The translations under genes were made by a program, and so were the position numbers. From positions 1 to 33,900 of the forward strand of contig JAABSP010000055.1 in assembly GCA_011390345.1 (NCBI GenBank): a stretch of 33,900 nt of DNA, read 5' to 3'. Positions 7,296-32,124 of this stretch are shown in pieces; positions within the stretch are counted from its first letter, which is position 1; every line of letters starts with the position of its first letter. This DNA comes from Desulfobacteraceae bacterium. GTDB lineage: Bacteria > Desulfobacterota > Desulfobacteria > Desulfobacterales > JAABSP01. Under the pieces are notes generated by a model. It did not search any database and was not told where the DNA came from. It worked only from the letters and a program-made list of their open reading frames with translations.

Positions 7296-8264
7296 TCAGT
7301 TACTTTCGTCATGTTTATCATTATTTTCGATTTCCGGAACATCGAGGTTCAATCGAGGGCTGCGATCCACCATCTCCCGCAGATCATCCCAGTTGAAATG
7401 GAGATACCGTTTTGTGGTATTGAGGTTCTCATGACCCAGAAGATATTGAATCATAATCAGATTCTCTCCGGATTGCGCTTTCAGGCTCGCGCCTGAATGG
7501 CGCAGAAGATGGGGCCCCTGTTTCCGTTTTATGATCCCGGCCCGGGCAAGTGCCTGACTGACCACATAATGCGTCTGACGCCGCTTGAGCTGCTTTCCGT
7601 GGCTGGAAAGAAAGACCCAGGGCTGGCTGTCATGACCTTTGTATTGGGGCCGGATCTCATACCATCGCTTGAATTTTTCCACAAGATCGTCATTCAAGGG
7701 GATTTTGTCGGTTTTATCCCGTTTTCGCGTCACCCAGACCTCACGGTTCTCTAATCGGACATCCTTCAACTGAAGGTTGATCACCTCGGAAACCCGCAGG
7801 CATAGATCGGTCATCAACCCAAAGAGGAGAAGGTTTCGATCTACGACCTTTGGGGGGGCATTGAGCGCTTCTGAACGAAAAACCCGTTCCAGTTCTGCAA
7901 AGGTAAGATAATCGGTCTTTGGCAGATAGAATTTCGGCTTTTCAATTGTAGAGGCAATATTATCGAGCATCAGCGCCTCATCCACCAGATAGTCCATGTA
8001 TCCGGTAAGGACATAGAGAATACCGACTTTTGAGGATTTTGCAATATTATTCTCTTTGAGATAGGCGATTACCAGATTTTTATGGATATCACAGGGCTTT
8101 TCCACTTTATGCTTTTTACAAAAGTTTCCAAAGCGGTTGAGTTCATATCGGCGGTTATAGACTGATGTGGGGCTCAATGCAGATATTGCCTCTTTTTCGT
8201 TTAGATACTCTTCTATGGTCTCCAGTATCGTATCATCTCTTTCAGGTGTGAATCTCTGGTTCAT
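7296..8264 (-). CDS. Solitary tyrosine recombinase (XerC/D-like)
   Basis: A site-specific DNA recombinase of 322 aa. Residues about 12-110 form the SAM-like core-binding domain and about 115-295 the catalytic domain. All catalytic positions are present: R157 in LCLRVSEV, a lysine in the RKRDKTDKIPL beta-hairpin (K184 or K187), H252 and R255 in HLLRHSGA, H278 in LLGHENL and nucleophile Y287 in TKRYLHF. The length and lack of an Arm-binding domain resemble Xer or IntI-like solo recombinases rather than phage integrases. It is not beside a tRNA, and no second recombinase or element boundary is visible next to it. A weak AAAGG lies 14 nt upstream of the ATG. Its 5' side faces a gene-poor, hairpin-rich interval that may hold its target. 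Confidence 0.88.
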   Translation of the reverse strand: MNQRFTPERDDTILETIEEYLNEKEAISALSPTSVYNRRYELNRFGNFCKKHKVEKPCDIHKNLVIAYLKENNIAKSSKVGILYVLTGYMDYLVDEALMLDNIASTIEKPKFYLPKTDYLTFAELERVFRSEALNAPPKVVDRNLLLFGLMTDLCLRVSEVINLQLKDVRLENREVWVTRKRDKTDKIPLNDDLVEKFKRWYEIRPQYKGHDSQPWVFLSSHGKQLKRRQTHYVVSQALARAGIIKRKQGPHLLRHSGASLKAQSGENLIMIQYLLGHENLNTTKRYLHFNWDDLREMVDRSPRLNLDVPEIENNDKHDESN

Positions 8265-10756: not shown

Positions 10757-11677
10757 TTACAGACTGATAAACTTTACCTGATTGCGGCCGCTTCGCTTTG
10801 CATTGAATAGGGCGCCGTCGCTTGCTTTTATAAGATATTCAAGGGTTATCGAGGTATTTGGATAAACCACCGCGGCCCCAAGGCTGATGGTGACGCGAAT
10901 GTCTGCCAGGGATGCGGAATGGGAAATATTGAGTTCTTCGATGTTTTTTCGCATCTGTTCTGCAATATGGAAAGCCCCTTCGATTTCGGTTTTGGGAAGA
11001 ACAGCGGCAAATTCCTCGCCCCCGTATCGGGCAACGAAGTCCGTGGGTCGTTTAACCGAGCCCACAAGTGTCTTTGCGACCTTCTTCAGACAGTCGTCCC
11101 CGGCCACATGATCGTAGGCATTGTTGTATGCGCCGAAATAATCGATGTCGATCATGATCAGGGAGAGGCAGGATTTCTCCCGGATCGCGTTCCTCCATTC
11201 CGCCTGGATGACTTCGTCAAAACGCCGGCGGTTGGGGATTCCGGTCAATCCATCCAGGGAGGAGAGGTGTTCCAGAAAATCCCGGTGGCGCTTCAGCTCC
11301 AGATGGGTCTTTACCCGGGCCTTTACAATGGCCTGGCTGAAAGGTTTGATGATGTAGTCCACCGCGCCCAGCCTCAGCCCCTTGGTCTCATCGGCTTCAT
11401 CCGCGCGGGCCGTGATGAAAATCACAGGAATATTACGGGTTTTCCGATTCTCTTTCAGGGCAAGGCAGACTTCGTAACCGTCCATCTCCGGCATCATTAT
11501 ATCCAACAGGATCAGATCGAACCCGTCCCTTGCCGAAAAGGCGAGATCCAGTGCGGTCCTTCCGTCGGTGGCAAAACTGATCCGGTACTCCTCCCGGAGG
11601 ACCTCCCCGAGCATTTTGATATTCTCCGGAACATCATCGACGATCAGTATTCGCTGTTTTCGGCCAAAAGGGTCCAT
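10757..11677 (-). CDS. REC-GGDEF response regulator, diguanylate cyclase
   Basis: A 306-aa cytoplasmic two-domain protein that makes cyclic di-GMP from two GTP when its receiver is phosphorylated (PleD/WspR logic). The receiver spans about 8-125, with acidic pocket D14-D15, phosphoacceptor D59 in LLLDIMMPEMDG, T89 and K111. The cyclase spans about 135-305 with DGLTGIPNRR and an intact GGEEF at 219-223. An RxxD inhibitory I-site (R210-D213) is placed exactly five residues before GGEEF, so product inhibition is expected. It follows the hybrid kinase gene by 12 bp and is the natural terminal acceptor of its phosphorelay. Activity and I-site are read from motifs; the link to the kinase is inferred from position. 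Confidence 0.94.
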   Translation of the reverse strand: MDPFGRKQRILIVDDVPENIKMLGEVLREEYRISFATDGRTALDLAFSARDGFDLILLDIMMPEMDGYEVCLALKENRKTRNIPVIFITARADEADETKGLRLGAVDYIIKPFSQAIVKARVKTHLELKRHRDFLEHLSSLDGLTGIPNRRRFDEVIQAEWRNAIREKSCLSLIMIDIDYFGAYNNAYDHVAGDDCLKKVAKTLVGSVKRPTDFVARYGGEEFAAVLPKTEIEGAFHIAEQMRKNIEELNISHSASLADIRVTISLGAAVVYPNTSITLEYLIKASDGALFNAKRSGRNQVKFISL

Positions 11678-14600: not shown

Positions 14601-15526
14601 TGGGCCACACAGCTTTGGCAGGGATTTGTGAGCCCCCTGTATGCGCGGTAGCAGGTCTTTCCGATGATGTCCTTTCCAAAGACCCGTCTTGCAATATCAT
14701 TTGCCCAGACAATTGTATAGTTTTCATCGATCATGCTCATCCGGTCCGTGATGGAGTTCATGATGCCTTCGAGCTGCTGCTCGCTCTCCCGCAGGGCCTC
14801 GTCCGCGGTCCGGCGCTCGCTGATCTCGATCTCCAGCTCCTCATTGATCCGGGCCAGATCCCGGGTCCGTTCCAGAACCCGCTGCTCCAGCTCCTCATGG
14901 GTCCGGAGAAGGGCCTCTTCAGCCTCTTTTCGCACCGTAATGTCCATTGCGATGCAGAGAAAGCCGTTCACCTCGTTGCTGTTCGGATCTTTCAGGGCAT
15001 TGATGGTCATCTCCACCGGAAAGGGGGTTTCGTCTTTGCGGATATAGTTCCACTCCCCCTGCTCGGATCGGCCCTGGATCGCATAGGCCATCAGAAGATC
15101 CCCGGCCTCGACATGCCTGCCGCACTGCGCGCTCAATTCCCGGCTGCGCACGGCCAATTCCTTTGGATCATGGAAAAATTCCGGCTTCTTCTTTCCTATC
15201 ACCTCTTTTGCGGAATAGCCAAGCAGGTTCTCCGCGCCCGCATTCATCACAGTGATGATCCCCTGGATATCCGTTGCAATGATGGAGATCTGAGAGGCTG
15301 AATCGAGTACCGCCTTCCGCATCGCGTTGGCGGTCTGGAACCGGTAGAGTATCCGCTCGGTCTCCTCGAACTGCTTTACCACCAGTTCTGCCGTGATCTC
15401 GGCCGCCTCCCGCGCGACGCGGATCTCCTCCCTGAGCCGCTGGTTCTCCGCGATCAGATCCCTGTGGGAATCGGAAAGAGGGAGGCTTTTCAAGATCGGT
15501 TCCGGCTGAAGAAAGAGTCTCGTCAT
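11690..15526 (-). CDS. PAS hybrid histidine kinase with two receivers and Hpt
   Basis: A 1278-aa soluble phosphorelay kinase with no membrane segment. Order: coiled coil (about 20-70), PAS1 (72-200, with LLGYSAKEVIGK), coiled coil (200-250), PAS2 (252-362), PAS3 (370-490), HisKA with H519 in MSHEIRTPLNAIIG, HATPase with NSIKF, DSGIGI and GGTGLGLAI, REC1 with D809, REC2 with D953, and an Hpt with H1106 in LIHAVKGISGNL. About 90 further helical residues end the protein. PAS2 carries C292, C303 and C306 in a CY...NPCQSC pattern seen in many anaerobe PAS domains, possibly redox or metal responsive. It starts 6 bp after the hydrogenase large subunit with no ribosome-binding site of its own, implying translational coupling. 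Probably reads hydrogenase state and drives the REC-GGDEF protein; this is inference. Confidence 0.93.
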   Translation of the reverse strand: MTRLFLQPEPILKSLPLSDSHRDLIAENQRLREEIRVAREAAEITAELVVKQFEETERILYRFQTANAMRKAVLDSASQISIIATDIQGIITVMNAGAENLLGYSAKEVIGKKKPEFFHDPKELAVRSRELSAQCGRHVEAGDLLMAYAIQGRSEQGEWNYIRKDETPFPVEMTINALKDPNSNEVNGFLCIAMDITVRKEAEEALLRTHEELEQRVLERTRDLARINEELEIEISERRTADEALRESEQQLEGIMNSITDRMSMIDENYTIVWANDIARRVFGKDIIGKTCYRAYRGLTNPCQSCVAQKTFADGRIHEHETDAISVDGERLIYWCTTSVTAWHKDGRPKLVVENSRDITDRKRAEAALRASEEKYRSIFENATEGIFQSTPQGLLLTVNPAFVKILGYDSEAELIETVTSIRDQLYVEPERRDQFQKLMKQQDMVRNFETPFFRKDKSIIHISLSAHAVRDRQGNVRYYEGIIEDITQKRRAEDLKIGKETAEAATRAKSDFLANMSHEIRTPLNAIIGLSDLALKGQLTPKLKDYLSKINVSAHSLLGIINDILDFSKIEAGRMNFEQVKFDLFEVLDNISDMLSGRAAEKGIELVISVAGNVPTALIGDPLRLSQVLTNLTANSIKFTETGEVMIRVELLTRDQGNLRLRFIIKDSGIGIAEDTLPHLFDPFTQADGSTTRRYGGTGLGLAICKRLVEMMDGEITARSEIGKGSSFFFTGRFGIHQESIKIKHSLPEPLKGKRVLVVDDNAASREIIAEILTGFGFMTDVSESGFHAVEMMRSACGNRDYDLVIMDWMMPEMDGISALKHIRSDPLLGDIPVIIMTAFGREQVMTQARAAGVNGFLIKPIKQSLLLDNLMEIFGRPGPEEIAGLSSSEMDNGERLLEGIRMLLVEDNFINLQVASEILFDSGAQVATAENGKEALEKRFSGDHFDAVLMDVQMPEMDGLTATREIRRIETEKKLSRMPIIAMTAHAMKGDRERCIGAGMDDYVTKPIDNAALMKVLAHWVGRCCPEEPKFEPEPEPEGEGRGGAFPDPPLDIDFSKALCRLNGNEPLFEELLTSFVEKFKDAPNRIRKLMSRREVEKAGELIHAVKGISGNLSAMELNRRCVAAEAALREKRRLDDELLKAFEETFRKMEMAAAAYMESRGRKVHQTEAEAPAGDMPAEILTQKELSDSVAKLDQMLADNDLEAEAAFKAIYPKLKTLGLNRQISGIPEQQQKCSEEAEPIIDRLAAQIRGLDFEKARKTLEAVALKLNLELTEH

Positions 15527-15532
15527 CTTTTT

Positions 15533-17044
15533 TTATGTTTCAATGGCATGAACCGTACAGACCAGACAGGGGTCAAAGGATCGGATCACCAGCCCCGCTT
15601 CAAAAGGGTCATCCGGGTTTTCAATGGTCGTATTCACAAGGGATGCCTCAATAGGCCCCCGAACCTCCTTCTGATCCCGCGGAGAGGCGTTCCATGCGGT
15701 GGGGGTGATGATCTGGTAGGTTTGGATCTTTTTGTCCCGGATCTTGACCCAGTGCCCCAGGGCGCCCCGTGGCGCCTCTACCAGCCCGAATCCCTCTCCT
15801 TCATTGACCGGGTCATAATTATGAAAGGATTCCCCCTCTCCATCCGCAAGCTCCTGAAGCCAGCCTTCCAGGGCCGGAAGGAGAATCGCGGTTCTGGCCA
15901 ATCTCGCCAGCACCCGGGTGAAGAGAGTTGAGCCGATCGTCTCAGCCAAATCGCCCATGAGCGGATCACCGGCCACAGCCAGTTGGGCCAAGGGGCCGCA
16001 CTCCGCGGGATGTCCGTCATATCGGGGGGCTTTGGCCCAGGAATACCGGTCGCTTTCGCTACCGGTGGCGTAGGGACGGGTTTCGCCGGAAAAGGGGTGC
16101 TGGGTAATGGGGCCACTGTTTTCAAACCAGCAGTGGCTCAGATCCTCGACTATCTTCTCCTGATCCAAAGAGGCTGTTATGCCATCGGCAAGGAAACCGG
16201 CCCCGAGGAATTGATCTTTGTTTCCAAAGGATTTGACACCCGTTTCCCGGGGCATGTCAAATCCGCCGAAGCTAATGAATCGGCCATCCCCCCTCCCCTG
16301 CTCCTCCAGTTTTGCCGCTTCTGAAAACCGCAGAAAAAAGCCGACCGCGCTCTTCTGATGCTCCGGACGTTCCTCAAGCCAATCATCGAGATCCTTCCGG
16401 CTCTGGATTTCCCGCCAGCGCTCGATGGCGCAGCCCAATACCTGCCGCTCATACCAGCGCCGGTAGTGCCGGACCATAAAGCGGCACTGGGAGATATCAT
16501 TGGGGCTCGGAACCGTCACCACGCCGCCGGGAACCATGAAGGAGGAATGGGGCCACTGGCCCCCCAGCAGCGCGATGATCTCGAGAATCCGCCGGCTCTC
16601 CCGGACCGTCTGGACCGCATCGGATCCTTTCATGGGCGTATATCGCCGCTGTGCCTCCTCATACAGGGGATGTTTGCGGAAATGGGGGTGGGTGAAATCG
16701 GCCATGAAAAGAAGAAATGAGTGGCGGGTGTCGTTCTGGATCATCTCGGCCATCCCGGTGATATTTCTGATCCGCAGCCCATTGTCCGGGACCTCGGCGC
16801 CGAAGATGGAATCCAAAGCCTTTGCAGCCGCGGACAGGTGGGAAGTGCTGCAGATGCCGCAGATTCTGGGGGTGATCACCAGCCCGTCCAGGGGGCCTCT
16901 GCCTTTTAAGATGTTTTCGAATCCCCGGTACATGATGCCGGAGCAGCGCGCGTCCGTCACCCGCCCCTCTTCGATATCCAGACGAACCTTGAGATCCCCT
17001 TCCACCCGATTGAATGGAACCACACAAACCGTTTTGGCTGACAT
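15533..17044 (-). CDS. [NiFe] hydrogenase large subunit, sensory-type (group 2-like)
   Basis: A 503-aa nickel-iron catalytic subunit. The N-terminal RVEGDL (E15), L1 motif R60-I-C62-G-I-C65-STSH69 and C-terminal L2 motif D491-P-C493-LV-C496-TVH499 are complete, so all four nickel cysteines are present. The chain stops only four residues after H499 (AIET). Catalytic hydrogenases usually carry a longer C-terminal peptide that a maturation protease removes after this His/Arg; large subunits of H2-sensing hydrogenases (HoxC/HupV type) are known to lack it. The near-absence of a tail therefore favours a sensor. Immediately downstream of the small subunit (12 bp) and upstream of a hybrid kinase (6 bp). 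AGGATC lies about 9 nt before the ATG. Group assignment needs phylogeny. Confidence 0.92.
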   Translation of the reverse strand: MSAKTVCVVPFNRVEGDLKVRLDIEEGRVTDARCSGIMYRGFENILKGRGPLDGLVITPRICGICSTSHLSAAAKALDSIFGAEVPDNGLRIRNITGMAEMIQNDTRHSFLLFMADFTHPHFRKHPLYEEAQRRYTPMKGSDAVQTVRESRRILEIIALLGGQWPHSSFMVPGGVVTVPSPNDISQCRFMVRHYRRWYERQVLGCAIERWREIQSRKDLDDWLEERPEHQKSAVGFFLRFSEAAKLEEQGRGDGRFISFGGFDMPRETGVKSFGNKDQFLGAGFLADGITASLDQEKIVEDLSHCWFENSGPITQHPFSGETRPYATGSESDRYSWAKAPRYDGHPAECGPLAQLAVAGDPLMGDLAETIGSTLFTRVLARLARTAILLPALEGWLQELADGEGESFHNYDPVNEGEGFGLVEAPRGALGHWVKIRDKKIQTYQIITPTAWNASPRDQKEVRGPIEASLVNTTIENPDDPFEAGLVIRSFDPCLVCTVHAIET

Positions 17045-17056
17045 AAATAATTGATC

Positions 17057-17995
17057 CTATATACCGGTTTTTCGTTTTTTCAGCCGCTTGGGTGCGGCGG
17101 CCGCTGCCATCCCCTTGTAGGCCAGATAGTGGGCCCGGCTGACGCCGTCGGGCAGATCGATGGGAATCCCCTCGATGTTCCGGGTCTCGAAAAAGGGGTA
17201 CTGCTGGGGAAAATCAGGACGGGTGCAGCCGAAGCAGGGAACCCCCACCCGGGTCTTTGAGGAGCGGCCGTTCCAGAGGATCTTGTTACAGGGCCCGTTG
17301 ACCAGGGGGCCGTGACACCCGAGATAGAAGAACATGCACCCCTTCTCGCCAAACTGTTTCTCCTCCACCCGATACTCGTGATACTCATTCCGGGTGCAGC
17401 CCTGATGCACCATCATGCCGTACCACTCCAGAGGCATTCCAAAGGCGTTCAGCTCGATCTCCGCTCCGGAAAGGAGCATGGAGAGGGTTCCGATGACCAC
17501 ATCGCAGTGGCAGGGGCAGCCCGGAAGATTGATCACCGGGAGTCCCTTTTTCGAAGAGAAGGATTCTCCGAGAAATCCGCCCTGCTTCCATTTGTGGAAA
17601 TGCAGACCCGTGGCCTCGATCTCTCGGTCCGCGCCGATCCCGCCGTAACTCGCGCAGGTTCCCACCGCCAGAATGTAGTCGGCCTGATGGGCCAGTGCCG
17701 CCACCAGATCCTTTTTGGGACGGCCGTCAGCCTCGTCGAACATCCCGGTTCCCGCAGGCCCCCGGATCACCGAACCCTCGATGCAGAGGATATTCAATGG
17801 CTTTTTTCCGGTGATCAGGGCACTGTTAAGATCCCGAAGCTCTGTAAGTCCCATTACGGAGATGGACGGATGCCACAACAGTTCTATATCGAGAAGGTCG
17901 ATACATTCGGCCAGATCGGGCGATCTCGCATTGAAAAGAGACCATGTATCGCCGCCGCATCCGCCGCATTGGAGCCAGTATAATGTATGTTTCAT
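17057..17995 (-). CDS. [NiFe] hydrogenase small subunit, cytoplasmic, Asp in proximal cluster site
   Basis: The electron-transfer subunit, 312 aa from ATG 17995, chosen because AGAGGA lies 5 nt upstream and MKHTLYWLQ matches the start of HupS/HoxB-type proteins. No Tat RR signal and no membrane anchor: cytoplasmic. Cluster ligands: proximal C13, C114, C160; distal H197, C200, C220, C227; medial C236, C254, C257. In WLQCGGCGGDTWS the residue expected to be the second Cys of the proximal CxxC is D16, and an extra cysteine, C10, lies three residues before C13. Cyanobacterial HupS has Asn at this position, and group 1h enzymes use Asp as ligand. GCTRNEYH, SSKTRVGVPCFGC and GGFLGE resemble group 2 enzymes. 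First gene of the putative H2-sensing operon. Confidence 0.92.
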   Translation of the reverse strand: MKHTLYWLQCGGCGGDTWSLFNARSPDLAECIDLLDIELLWHPSISVMGLTELRDLNSALITGKKPLNILCIEGSVIRGPAGTGMFDEADGRPKKDLVAALAHQADYILAVGTCASYGGIGADREIEATGLHFHKWKQGGFLGESFSSKKGLPVINLPGCPCHCDVVIGTLSMLLSGAEIELNAFGMPLEWYGMMVHQGCTRNEYHEYRVEEKQFGEKGCMFFYLGCHGPLVNGPCNKILWNGRSSKTRVGVPCFGCTRPDFPQQYPFFETRNIEGIPIDLPDGVSRAHYLAYKGMAAAAAPKRLKKRKTGI

Positions 17996-18032
17996 GGATT
18001 CCTCTAAATGACGTTTCAAAAACTGACGTGGA

Positions 18033-18226: not shown

Positions 18227-20056
18227 ATGGAGTGGCGAAAGTGGATAGTTGTGGCGCTGATTCTTTCCGTAATCTTTGCTGGGGCAGTCATCGCCCTGGA
18301 GATGTTTTTTGCCGCAGGAATTTCGGCTTCTGCCGGCGGACTCGGGCCGCTTCTGGGCGGGGGCATCGGTACCCTCTGGCTGCTGTCTGGCATTTTCTTC
18401 TTTATCCGGCGGCCCAAGGAGAACAAGGGGCCTGCGGTTGATGAACTTTCCGCTGTCTTTCTGGATCAGAACCGGCCGGCTTCCGAGCGGACCGATGCCA
18501 TCCATACCCTTGCCCAGTACGGCTCCTTTGCCGAGGAGGGGGTTCCTTTTCTGATCCAGGCCCTTGCTGACCCGGACCGGGAGGTGCGGGAGGCCTCGGC
18601 AAAGGCTTTAAACGAGATCGACCCGGAGTGGATGGAGAGCGAGGCCGCTCACAAGGCGGTGCAGCGGCTGATCACGGCCCTGAGCAGCCGGGATCGGGAG
18701 TCTCGGATCGCATCCGCGGACGCGCTGGGCAGATTCGGCCCTTCGGTGGCCGATGATGTGGTTCCCCAGTTGATCGGCCATATTCGGGATACCGATGGTG
18801 ATGTCCGTGCGGCCGTGGTCCGATCTTTGGGCCGGATGGGGCCGGCCGCGGACCGGGCCGCGCCCAAGCTGGTTGAGATGATCACCGATGCCAACAAGAA
18901 TGTGCGCCAGGCCGTGGGGCAGACCCTGATCGGCATGGGACAGGGCACGATCCCGCCGCTGGTGAAGAAACTCTCTTCCGAGAATGAGAATCAGCGGGCT
19001 ATTGCGGTGAAGATCCTGCAACGGATCGACAAGAACTGGACCCAGCACGAGAGCGCAAAGGAGGTGGTGGACCACTTTCTGAAACAGGCAAAAGATGGTT
19101 TTGGTGATGCACGGGTTTCAGCCATTAAGGCTCTTGGGGTACTCGGTTCCAATGCCCGGGCCGCAATCCCCGATCTGGTGGCCGGACTCATCGACGGCGA
19201 CAGTCAGGTGCGGAGTGCTGCCCTGAAGACCATCAAGGCCGTCGATCCCCAGTGGATCAAGAGCAAGGAGATCAAAGCCGCGGTTCCGGAACTGGTCAAT
19301 GCCCAGGTGGACAGCGACCGGAAGGTTCAGAAGACCGCGGCTAAGATATTGGAACGGGTCGATCCGAACTGGCCGGCCCGGGAGGATACGATCTCGCAGG
19401 TTCCGCTTTTCACCAAGGCGCTCTCAAACAGTCTGGAGACGGTGCGCCAATCTGCGTCACAGGTGCTGGAGAAGATCGGGCCTCCGGCCAAAAGCGCGGT
19501 TCCGGCCCTGATCGAACGGCTGGCCGACGCAGAGAAGGGGGTGCGGGAGCATGCTGCACGGGCACTCAATGCCATCGAGCCGGAATGGCAGAAGCAGGAA
19601 GCTGTGGGGCAGAAGGTGGAGGCGCTGGTAGAAAATCTCGATTCATCGGACTGGCGGGTCCGGCTCGGCGCGGCCGGGGCTCTCGGAGAGCTGGGCCGTG
19701 CGGCCCCTGGCCTTTCCATTACCGCGCTGGTCTCCCATATGGCCGACGGAGACCGGAATGTGCGGGCCGCGATCCAGGAGTCCTTGAAGAAGATCGATCC
19801 GAAGTGGTCTGTAAGCAAGGCAGCGCGGGGCAGTCTGCCCAAGCTGATGGAATCTCTGGGGCACAGCCAGTGGGGGATTCGCGCGGCCGCGGTGGAATCA
19901 CTGGCCTATTTCGGCCCATCCGGGGCAAAGATCACTGCTCCCCGGCTCGTCAAGATGATGAACACCGACAGCGTCACCGATGTCCGCAACACCGCAAAAC
20001 GGATTCTGCAGAAGGTCGATCCCGAGGGGAAGTACGCTGCTACCGGTTCCGGATGA
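18227..20056 (+). CDS. Membrane-anchored HEAT-repeat protein
   Basis: A 609-aa protein. Two hydrophobic segments (about 7-28 and 40-62) form an N-terminal membrane hairpin, ending in RRPKENK. The rest, from about residue 75, is a solenoid of HEAT repeats of 38-45 residues. Recurrent units are of the type GxxAxxAVPxLxxxLxDxDxxVRxxAxxALxxIDPxW, e.g. ADPDREVREASAKALNEIDPEW and LADAEKGVREHAARALNAIEPEW. Such scaffolds bind proteins; no enzymatic motif is seen. The IDPxW ending of repeats is conserved along the whole protein. GGGGAG lies 8 nt before the ATG. It is divergent from the hydrogenase operon (shared 231-bp upstream region), and its last 17 bp overlap the convergent tupB-like gene. The partner is unknown. 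Confidence 0.88.
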   Translation: MEWRKWIVVALILSVIFAGAVIALEMFFAAGISASAGGLGPLLGGGIGTLWLLSGIFFFIRRPKENKGPAVDELSAVFLDQNRPASERTDAIHTLAQYGSFAEEGVPFLIQALADPDREVREASAKALNEIDPEWMESEAAHKAVQRLITALSSRDRESRIASADALGRFGPSVADDVVPQLIGHIRDTDGDVRAAVVRSLGRMGPAADRAAPKLVEMITDANKNVRQAVGQTLIGMGQGTIPPLVKKLSSENENQRAIAVKILQRIDKNWTQHESAKEVVDHFLKQAKDGFGDARVSAIKALGVLGSNARAAIPDLVAGLIDGDSQVRSAALKTIKAVDPQWIKSKEIKAAVPELVNAQVDSDRKVQKTAAKILERVDPNWPAREDTISQVPLFTKALSNSLETVRQSASQVLEKIGPPAKSAVPALIERLADAEKGVREHAARALNAIEPEWQKQEAVGQKVEALVENLDSSDWRVRLGAAGALGELGRAAPGLSITALVSHMADGDRNVRAAIQESLKKIDPKWSVSKAARGSLPKLMESLGHSQWGIRAAAVESLAYFGPSGAKITAPRLVKMMNTDSVTDVRNTAKRILQKVDPEGKYAATGSG

Positions 20057-20726
20057 AAGAGAGGGTGAGATTTGCCCCGAATGCGATCAGCAGCAGCACC
20101 AGCCCCAGCGCGATCCCCATGTCGAACATCCCCTTGTTGGTCTCCAGCGCGATGGCCGTTGTGATGGTCCGGGTGTGCCACTTGATGTTTCCCCCCACCG
20201 TCATGGAGATCCCCACCTCGGTCATGACCCGGCCGTATGCGGCCACCGCGGCCGTCAGCACCCCGTAGCGGACCTCCCAGAGCGTGGAAAAGAGCAACTG
20301 CCGGCGGTTTGCCCCTAGTGAGATGAGGGTAGTCCGGAGGGGCGCGTCCATGCTCTCCACGGCTGAGGCGGTCAGGGCTGTGACCACGGGAATCGCGAGG
20401 ATGGCCTGACCGATCGCGATGCCCCGGAGGGTGAAGAGGAGGTCAAGATCTCCGAGAGGGCCCCGGCGGGAGAGAAAGGCATAGACCAGCAGCCCGATGA
20501 AGACCGTGGGAAGAGAGAGCAGCGTATCCACAATGATCCGGACCTTCCGCTTTCCCCGGAAATCGAAATAGCCCAGGGCGAATCCCGCGGGGATGCCGAC
20601 TGCGAGGCTGACGGACATGGAATAGGCCGTGGCGATCAGGGTTGCGGTGATCGCGGAATAGGTCTCGGGATCTCCGGAAAGGAGCAGGCTGATGGCCCGG
20701 AGAAATCCTTGAAGCAGAAAATCCAT
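20040..20726 (-). CDS. tupB: TupB-type tungstate ABC transporter permease, orphan
   Basis: A 228-aa inner-membrane permease of the BPD_transp_1 class, closest in pattern to TupB of the tungstate importer TupABC. It starts MDFLLQGFLRAISLLLSGDPETYSAI, has about five or six helices, a LGANRRQLLFSTLWEVRYGVLTAAVAAYGRVMTEVG coupling-loop region with the EAA-like signature, and GGNIKWHTRTITTAIALET. Tungstate serves formate dehydrogenases and aldehyde oxidoreductases in anaerobes. Neither the binding protein TupA nor the ATPase TupC is adjacent, so it must borrow them from elsewhere or be a relic. No ribosome-binding site precedes the ATG. The gene begins exactly where a broken regulator gene ends. 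Substrate is inferred from family resemblance. Confidence 0.82.
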   Translation of the reverse strand: MDFLLQGFLRAISLLLSGDPETYSAITATLIATAYSMSVSLAVGIPAGFALGYFDFRGKRKVRIIVDTLLSLPTVFIGLLVYAFLSRRGPLGDLDLLFTLRGIAIGQAILAIPVVTALTASAVESMDAPLRTTLISLGANRRQLLFSTLWEVRYGVLTAAVAAYGRVMTEVGISMTVGGNIKWHTRTITTAIALETNKGMFDMGIALGLVLLLIAFGANLTLSFIRNR

Positions 20727-30917: not shown

Positions 30918-30953
30918 GGCGTAATCCCAATGGGTTACGCCTTTGGTGTTTTT
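30918..30953. terminator. Terminator shared by tRNA-Leu and the convergent integrase
   Basis: GGCGTAA (30918-30924) pairs with TTACGCC (30935-30941); CCC/GGG extends the stem past one bulged T, with loop AAT. TTTGGTGTTTTT follows. The integrase stop codon lies at the end of this T-rich tract. Confidence 0.75.
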
Positions 30954-32124
30954 ATGGTTGCGTATAGGTTGCGTTTTGGTTGCGGGCCATCCCCTGGTCA
31001 TCCAAGAGATTGACCTCGGCCTGATCCGTCTGGGGGATGTAATCGTTGTAGTTTTTGACGGTGATGTTGATGTTGTGATGCCCGACCTGCTCCTGGACGT
31101 AGGTGAGGGTTGCCCCGGAACTGATCAGATTGCTGACATAGGTATGGCGGATATCATGGAACCGGATCTCTCGCAGGCCCGCCTTCCGGAGAATCCGCTT
31201 GAACCGCTTGCGTATGGTGTTTTGGGGAATGTGCTTTCCGTTACCGTGAAAGATGATCTCCACTGCCCCCCCTCCCCCGCTTTTGAACCCCTCCTTCTTT
31301 CTTTGGGTATGCAGATCCTTCAACACATCGATCAGTTGATCGGTCATATCGACGCGGCGAGAAGTCTTGCTCTTTGTCGGGCTTACGATCCCCCGGTTAA
31401 AGGAGCTTTGCACCATGATAAATTTCCCGTGCCAGTCGATGGTGGACCATTCCAGCGCCAGCAGTTCCCCCAGTCGAAGACCGGTTCGGAAGGCACAGAA
31501 GAAGAAGGAATAATCATCCGGGAAATGTTCCTGGCAGATATTGAGGAAATGTCGGGTTTCCTCCCTGTTGAAGGGATCGAGGTGGCCTCCTTTGTCCCTT
31601 TTGAGATTCAGCCGTTTCAAGAGATTGCTGCAGGGGTTTACTGTCACCACCTCCTCGTCAATGGCCTGGTTGAAGACGCCTGAGATGACGTTGTTGATGG
31701 TCTCAATGGAGCTTTTGGAAAGACCTTTTTTCAAAAGACCCAACAGCAGCTTTTTGATATGGCCGCGATTGATCTCCCGAATATCCATTTTGCCGATGAC
31801 AGGGTTGATGTGATCCCTCAAGAGCTGCTCATATCGTTCATGGGTTGAAGCGGTGCGCAGGGGCTTGATGTAATCCTCCAGCCAGACGGCCGCATAAAAG
31901 CGGAAGGTCATCAGTTCCCGATCTTCTTCGGATGCCTCGCTTCCAGGATCTTCATCCTGGAAAAAGCTGTAATCCCCCATGATGAGTTGGGCTTCAACGA
32001 GCTTTGCCACCTTTTCAGCAATCTTCTTCTTGCCGATCTTCCTGGCCCCCCGCTTTCCCTTATGATGAACATAGATATACCATTCATCAGACCCCTTTTT
32101 CTTCTCCCTGACCTTTACGCCCAT
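30952..32124 (-). CDS. Tyrosine integrase of the tRNA-Leu element
   Basis: A 390-aa phage/ICE-type integrase. The N-terminal ~50 residues are a basic Arm-binding-like domain (KVREKKKGSDEWYIYVHHKGKRGARKIG), then a SAM-like core-binding domain (about 70-165) and the catalytic domain (about 180-365). Catalytic residues: R217 in FRTGLRLGE, K253 in PTKSKTSRR, H323 and R326 in FHDIRHTYV, H349 in VGHHN and nucleophile Y359. The gene ends 48 bp from the tRNA and points toward it, the usual position for an integrase. Its ATG lies one base after the stop of the serine recombinase, so the two are co-translated. Confidence 0.93.
   Translation of the reverse strand: MGVKVREKKKGSDEWYIYVHHKGKRGARKIGKKKIAEKVAKLVEAQLIMGDYSFFQDEDPGSEASEEDRELMTFRFYAAVWLEDYIKPLRTASTHERYEQLLRDHINPVIGKMDIREINRGHIKKLLLGLLKKGLSKSSIETINNVISGVFNQAIDEEVVTVNPCSNLLKRLNLKRDKGGHLDPFNREETRHFLNICQEHFPDDYSFFFCAFRTGLRLGELLALEWSTIDWHGKFIMVQSSFNRGIVSPTKSKTSRRVDMTDQLIDVLKDLHTQRKKEGFKSGGGGAVEIIFHGNGKHIPQNTIRKRFKRILRKAGLREIRFHDIRHTYVSNLISSGATLTYVQEQVGHHNINITVKNYNDYIPQTDQAEVNLLDDQGMARNQNATYTQP

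Follow-up and report, generated by a model that had tools for sequence, protein, structure and literature searches.

The window analysed here, a stretch of 33,900 nucleotides of contig JAABSP010000055.1 from a Desulfobacteraceae bacterium, contains an operon encoding, in order, the small and large subunits of a [NiFe] hydrogenase, a PAS hybrid histidine kinase and a REC-GGDEF response regulator, separated by gaps of 12, 6 and 12 bases (Table 1). The small-subunit gene starts with an ATG at 17995-17993, with AGAGGA directly upstream at 18000-18005 as recognized by eye, and its stop codon is at 17057-17059. The N-terminus of the small subunit reads MKHTLYWLQCGGCGGDTWS (minus strand), and the span of the motif considered below corresponds to WLQCGGCGGDTWS on the reverse strand at 17939-17977. 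The large subunit stops four residues past the His of its L2 motif (15533-15547, minus strand), a tail that varies from 0 to 32 residues among relatives, and an ORF resembling a maturation protease is present in only some of the relatives' loci. A HEAT-repeat protein (18227-20056, plus strand) and a TupB-like, tungstate-type ABC permease slightly below the model cut-off (20040-20726, minus) are encoded on the other side of the small-subunit gene. The window further contains a phage-type integrase (30952-32124, minus) and a XerC/XerD-like recombinase (7296-8264, minus). Rfam revealed no match between 9000 and 21000. A search of the same genome identified one further small subunit, which is distant (36% identity, contig C97).

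Table 1. Features of the hydrogenase operon and ligand positions of the small subunit.
Feature	Coordinates	Strand	Basis or remark
[NiFe] hydrogenase small subunit, 312 aa, probable group 2c type	17057..17995	-	Pfam PF01058 + PF14720, tree placement
C10, extra cysteine, not conserved	17966-17968	-	codon TGC
C13, first proximal-cluster ligand	17957-17959	-	codon TGC; Cys in 96/96 rows of Asp/His set
D16, second CxxC ligand position of proximal cluster	17948-17950	-	codon GAT
C114, proximal ligand	17654..17656	-	Cys in 180/180 rows
C160, proximal ligand	17516..17518	-	Cys in 180/180 rows
H197, distal-cluster His ligand (Gln in group 2a type)	17405..17407	-	H in 97/97 group rows, Q in 20/20 2a-type
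K247, fourth medial ligand position	17255..17257	-	K in 97/97 group rows + 20/20 2a-type
[NiFe] hydrogenase large subunit, 503 aa; L1 RICGIC, L2 SFDPCLVCTVH + 4-residue tail	15533..17044	-	Pfam PF00374, motifs
PAS hybrid histidine kinase (HisKA, HATPase_c, two REC stretches, Hpt), 1278 aa	11690..15526	-	Pfam
Conserved kinase N-terminal segment, aa 24-64	15335..15457	-	profile in 70/80 relatives' loci
REC-GGDEF response regulator (diguanylate cyclase type)	10757..11677	-	Pfam

A first-pass annotation had assigned C13 as the first ligand of the proximal cluster and placed D16 at the second cysteine of the CxxC motif. Alignment with group 2 and group 1h small subunits confirmed this register, in which C13 and D16 match the CxxC ligand pair. 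In 5aa5, a group 1h enzyme of solved structure, the stretch matching C13-D16 reads CDGD, and the 1h-type locus L038 aligns likewise, in agreement with the annotation's mention of Asp ligation in group 1h, where coordination of the proximal [4Fe4S] cluster by an Asp is presumed (PMC7174314; here and below, literature statements refer to the excerpts of the cited papers that were available). Its statement that cyanobacterial HupS has Asn at this place is likewise matched by the 2a-type sequences, Asn in 20 of 20. The HoxB-type proteins to which it also refers carry Cys and not Asp at position 16 (22 of 22 2b-type rows). The remaining Fe-S ligand positions of the window protein are intact, namely C114 and C160 for the proximal cluster, H197, C200, C220 and C227 for the distal cluster and C236, C254 and C257 for the medial cluster. 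Additional cysteines that are not ligands are encoded at 17504-17512 and 17783-17785 (minus strand); among the 96 small subunits with Asp described below, C164 occurs in 30, C71 in 68 and C162 in 84. In the O2-tolerant, membrane-bound type of enzyme, extra cysteines at positions 15 and 119 (window numbering) complete the six-Cys set of the [4Fe-3S] cluster (PMC5186783). The window protein and all 96 Asp rows have Gly at both positions, and a cluster of that kind was rejected.

The structure of the small subunit was predicted with AlphaFold2 from 56 sequences and without cofactor (mean pLDDT 75, pTM 0.79). Its quality is good as far as residue 190 or so, whereas much of the C-terminal third is poorly modelled. 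Its N-terminal segment consists of a strand (residues 3-9), a loop and a helix (residues 15-21), so that C10 and C13 are loop residues and D16 falls at the helix start. HucS (7uur) is the best solved relative of the window small subunit, and a Foldseek search with the predicted fold placed Huc (7utd) at the top, followed by the group 1h enzyme 5aa5. The VIA comparison gave Z 28.9 and rmsd 3.0 over 248 aligned residues for Huc, and Z 23.6 and rmsd 3.2 over 247 for 5aa5, a score shared with group 1 enzymes, so that 5aa5 is not singled out.

The main relatives, 80 sequences from named genomes, are the best 80 of 294 confirmed and are biased to close kin. Position 16 is Asp in all 80 of these best matches, encoded by GAC in 48 and GAT in 32 of the best 80 of 294, and an artefact of sequencing or assembly was rejected on this basis. 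Carriers among the best 80 of 294 include Desulfobacteraceae and other Deltaproteobacteria, Planctomycetota, Acidobacteria, Chloroflexi, Nitrospirae, Riflebacteria, Myxococcales, alpha-, beta- and gammaproteobacteria and others, the majority being metagenome-assembled. A broader set of 180 small subunits was compiled from these 80 relatives, loci from five phylum-wide genome draws and 12 named plasmid records (of 124 matching records). The first draw gave a match in 215 of 395 genomes, from which 30 loci were taken, and in another draw 30 of 37 places were read. The window itself (L001), a broken copy (L011), a fragment lacking the N-terminus (L014), four further sequences lacking the N-terminus (L139, L140, L142 and L182) and 13 rows identical to others were left out. 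The 180 rows, 15 of which were themselves seeds, were assigned to seeds according to sequence identity, columns 10, 16, 197 and 247 being hidden. An earlier grouping had used residues 16 and 197 and was hence pure there by construction; the blind sorting repeated it. Position 16 proved to be Asp in 96 of the 97 rows assigned to the group of the window with the ligand columns hidden. D16 is thus a hallmark of the family, typical of nearly the whole group and more general than a local oddity, since nearly all close relatives have Asp there.

The residues at the second proximal (16), fourth medial (247) and first distal (197) positions form a ligand code that follows the groups. The 97 rows of the window (2c) type are D/K/H in 96 cases and N/K/H in one, the 2a (Huc/HupS) type is N/K/Q in 20 of 20 and the 2b (HoxB) type C/C/H in 22 of 22. 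Five sequences (L012, L013, L194, L195 and L196), which form the sister clade of 2b, are all D/C/H, Cys at 247 thus occurring in all five as in the 22 2b-type rows, and the single group 1h type (L038) is also D/C/H. The 35 other hydrogenases are C/C/H (29) or C/P/H (6), one of them (L136) being poorly aligned at C13. In the 96 Asp rows all other ligand positions are Cys or His, save the Lys at the fourth medial place. The sole row sorting with 2c that lacks Asp, with the odd code Asn/Lys/His, is from Sulfurimonas paralvinellae (L037:2980-3885, plus strand). Its placement is unsure because it is only 41% identical to the nearest seed and formed a long branch in the first tree.

The hydrogenase of the window is probably a group 2c enzyme and a putative H2 sensor, a label that we infer from its signalling neighbours, separate clade, carrier range and L2 motif, the tree being one without a HydDB-labelled 2c sequence. 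Group 2c is described with the L2 consensus SFDxCLVCTVH and with H2 sensing only as a proposal (PMC4853749, after Greening et al.). The window has SFDPCLVCTVH, a weak test in that the consensus is exact in only 47 of 73 relatives, occurs also in the 2a-type L036 and in L202 of the D/C/H clade and is absent from the Ideonella member. Signalling genes are co-encoded in the window (the hybrid kinase and the REC-GGDEF regulator) and at the Ideonella locus of the same clade, which has a GGDEF-EAL protein. The L2 motif, the adjacent signalling genes and carriers among sulfate reducers and the kin of methylotrophs are shared with the description of group 2c, which, however, stresses diguanylate cyclases and phosphodiesterases where the window has a hybrid histidine kinase with REC-GGDEF (PMC4853749). 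Group 2 as a whole is described as cytosolic (PMC4853749). The locus therewith belongs to a known kind of enzyme. The available literature excerpts that were searched held no statement on the proximal ligand of group 2c, a search that fell short of the main classification (Greening et al.), where it is possibly known.

Comparison with the better known systems gave the following likenesses and differences. The 2b sensor HoxBC of Cupriavidus necator resembles the window in that a hydrogenase heterodimer is encoded beside a kinase gene and the distal His is kept. The kinase in question is HoxJ, annotated as 'ATP-binding protein'. Unlike the window, 2b enzymes have Cys at 16 and 247 in place of Asp and Lys, form a separate clade and have kinases with a different N-terminal segment; membership in 2b was rejected on the grounds of D16 and K247 versus Cys in 22 of 22 2b-type rows and of the position outside the HoxB/HupU clade. 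The 2a enzymes Huc and HupS share with the window K247, a sister-clade relationship and the nearest solved fold, but are uptake enzymes with Asn16 and Gln197, and 2a membership was rejected with D16/H197 in the window versus N/Q in 20 of 20 2a-type rows. Group 1h (5aa5) likewise has Asp at the second proximal position, but has an uptake role and is far from group 2. Kinship with 1h (HofK-type) was rejected on the basis of the 29% identity of L038 and of the group profile, which scores 5aa5 with 114.5 bits versus 339.3 for Huc.

A tree of 58 chosen rows, calculated with columns 10, 16 and 197 excluded, resolved the 2c, 2a, 2b and D/C/H rows each as a single supported clade with the topology ((2a,2c),(2b,D/C/H)), all joins being supported. 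The sister clades 2c and 2a (100/97 and 100/100) join with a support of 99/92, and the window protein lies outside the HoxB/HupU clade, the two clades being separate with supports of 100/97 and 100/100. A single clade of 2c and D/C/H, which would imply one shared origin of the Asp, was rejected by the AU test (p 0.0005), the grouping having been chosen after viewing a first tree. Asp was therefore either gained twice in group 2, or was ancestral and then replaced by Asn in 2a and by Cys in 2b. By our own count three changes are needed for ancestral Asp and three for a double gain, the minimum on the tree being 3. Ancestral Asp in group 2 with loss in 2a and 2b was accordingly not rejected. Besides the group 2 clades, Asp is found in group 1h.

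The first-pass annotation had also read the surroundings as the setting of a sensor, which accords with the hybrid kinase and REC-GGDEF regulator downstream and with a kinase in 70 of 80 relatives' loci (best 80 of 294). The kinases of these 70 loci share the N-terminal segment of residues 24-64, which is without a Pfam match and in which Q52 is found in 70 of 70 and F53 in 69 of 70; it is absent from three 2b kinases examined. Of the 10 loci without a match to the segment, nine end at most 2.14 kb after the small-subunit match. In the tenth (L120) the screen gave no large subunit anywhere in the locus and, within 8 kb downstream, no kinase; a kinase-like ORF is present upstream, on the opposite strand. 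Our guess is that the segment is a candidate docking element for the hydrogenase. The kinases of 2b and D/C/H loci (L034, L035, L042, L201 and L204) seem, by eye, to share another N-terminal segment of about VIxxMDxxYxxLxxxQVELExKN; that of L042 aligns without gaps to the 2c segment with a negligible score of 1.1 bits. In four relatives' loci (L049, L050, L068 and L071) the region upstream of the small subunit contains an additional large-subunit-like ORF and an additional kinase-like one.

In the D/C/H clade a kinase adjoins the hydrogenase in all three loci with enough DNA, so that two clades contain kinase-linked hydrogenases with Asp. Sensing neither requires Asp nor follows from its presence, since 2b sensors have Cys and 1h uptake enzymes have Asp. 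At one 2c-type locus (L205:10616-13603, plus strand), the only such case among 205 loci scanned by motif, the partner protein begins with a Rieske [2Fe-2S] domain, to which PAS-GGDEF-EAL is fused, a hint that hydrogenase electrons may flow directly into the signalling protein. A search for the Rieske-bearing segment in 3 genomes of one family revealed the known copy only.

Cluster types were predicted from the ligand code as calibrated on studied enzymes (the 2b sensor, Huc, HupS and 1h). Huc, with Asn/Lys/Gln, contains three [3Fe-4S] clusters as indicated by density maps and EPR (PMC10017518). For cyanobacterial HupS a proximal [4Fe-4S] cluster with Asn ligation and a Gln-ligated distal cluster are described in a review (PMC6616624). 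The sensor of C. necator, which by sequence has four Cys each at the proximal and medial clusters and a His at the distal cluster, gave spectra that fit three [4Fe-4S] clusters; its proximal cluster was not visibly reduced by H2, and an unusually low potential of this cluster has been proposed to matter (PMC5665086). On balance we consider it probable that the window encodes a group 2c-type hydrogenase, likely a sensor of H2, in which D16, in place of the second CxxC cysteine, would serve as the fourth, oxygen-donating ligand of a [4Fe-4S](Cys3Asp) proximal cluster by analogy with that reported for 1h. For the medial cluster, whose fourth position is Lys like that of Huc, the code predicts [3Fe-4S], and for the distal cluster a His-ligated [4Fe-4S], C10 being optional. 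The small and large subunits would together sense H2 for the downstream histidine kinase and REC-GGDEF regulator, and electrons or the redox state may pass from the hydrogenase to the kinase.

A residue other than Cys at position 16 need not bind iron, since Huc with Asn there is reported as [3Fe-4S]. The main alternative is therefore that D16 lies near the proximal cluster and is not bound to iron, the cluster being [3Fe-4S] like that of Huc, which would give the sensor a high-potential proximal cluster. The sister relationship of 2a and 2c, the three [3Fe-4S] clusters reported for the nearest solved relative (PMC10017518) and the Asn of L037, which sorts with the 2c group, speak for this alternative. 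The residue in question is, however, Asp, which unlike the Asn of Huc is reported as a cluster ligand in 1h (PMC7174314), and Asn occurs in only 1 of 97 group rows. Even Asn may ligate, as HupS is reported with an Asn-ligated [4Fe-4S] (PMC6616624), and the distal His that is lost in 2a is kept in 2c. We regard an unligated D16 as somewhat unlikely, though worth serious consideration.

The first-pass annotation had pointed to C10 as an extra cysteine near the cluster and had counted it with D16 in a special set of ligands. C10 is indeed present in the window, and its membership in such a set did not hold. Where present, C10 might replace D16 as the fourth ligand in the register C10-x-x-C13, leaving D16 a bystander, or the two might swap depending on redox state. 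The CxxC spacing in C10-G-G-C13 would fit, and position 10 is most often Cys, in 54 of the 97 group rows (G 17, S 11, A 9, T 2, L 2, N 2) and in 49 of the 80 relatives (best 80 of 294; Gly 12, Ser 9, Ala 7, Leu 2, Thr 1). Against this, 43 of 97 rows are without C10, D16 is kept in rows with and without it, including all 54 that have it, and a tree of the Asp rows (101, of which 54 have C10) requires at least 18 changes of C10, a larger tree at least 19. In addition, three of the 35 other hydrogenases, with all four proximal cysteines (L021, L028 and L191), combine Cys at 10 with a complete CxxC. In other groups the position is Ser or Ala (2b) or Gly (2a). C10 is therefore not a required ligand, a role that was rejected, and a part for it as an occasional or redox-dependent ligand appears improbable.

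A partner residue for C10 was also sought. The best association was with small-subunit position 98 (Fisher p 2.5e-8 in 1365 tests); only 7 independent pairs lay on supported branches, usually too few to reach 0.05, none reached 0.05 among the results listed and the comparison had little power. We take C10 to be a tolerated, optional residue beside the predicted cluster, and where present its side chain could tune it. It is scarcely to be expected that D16 is a second-shell or proton-relay residue and that the cluster is completed by C162 (GCPC), which lies two residues past the ligand C160, is Cys in 84 of 96 Asp rows and is replaced in 2b-type rows by Thr (21) or Ile (1), since 12 of the 96 Asp rows have D16 without C162.

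The results bear on the question of how a regulatory hydrogenase converts the binding of H2 into a signal for a kinase. The widespread, sensor-like 2c group with Asp, beside a sister uptake group with Asn, provides a natural series of mutants at one position, and the residue code at 16, 197 and 247 is a simple means of sorting group 2 small subunits in genomes. Tentatively, and with rather less confidence than we attach to the ligand itself, kinase-coupled H2 sensors may have at least two proximal-cluster chemistries, all-Cys in 2b and Asp in 2c and the unnamed sister clade of 2b. The Asp cluster might then act as a tuned gate, determining when the sensor is in its signalling redox state, and the C/D/N series with its coupled states at 197 and 247 might be a natural code separating sensor from uptake groups.
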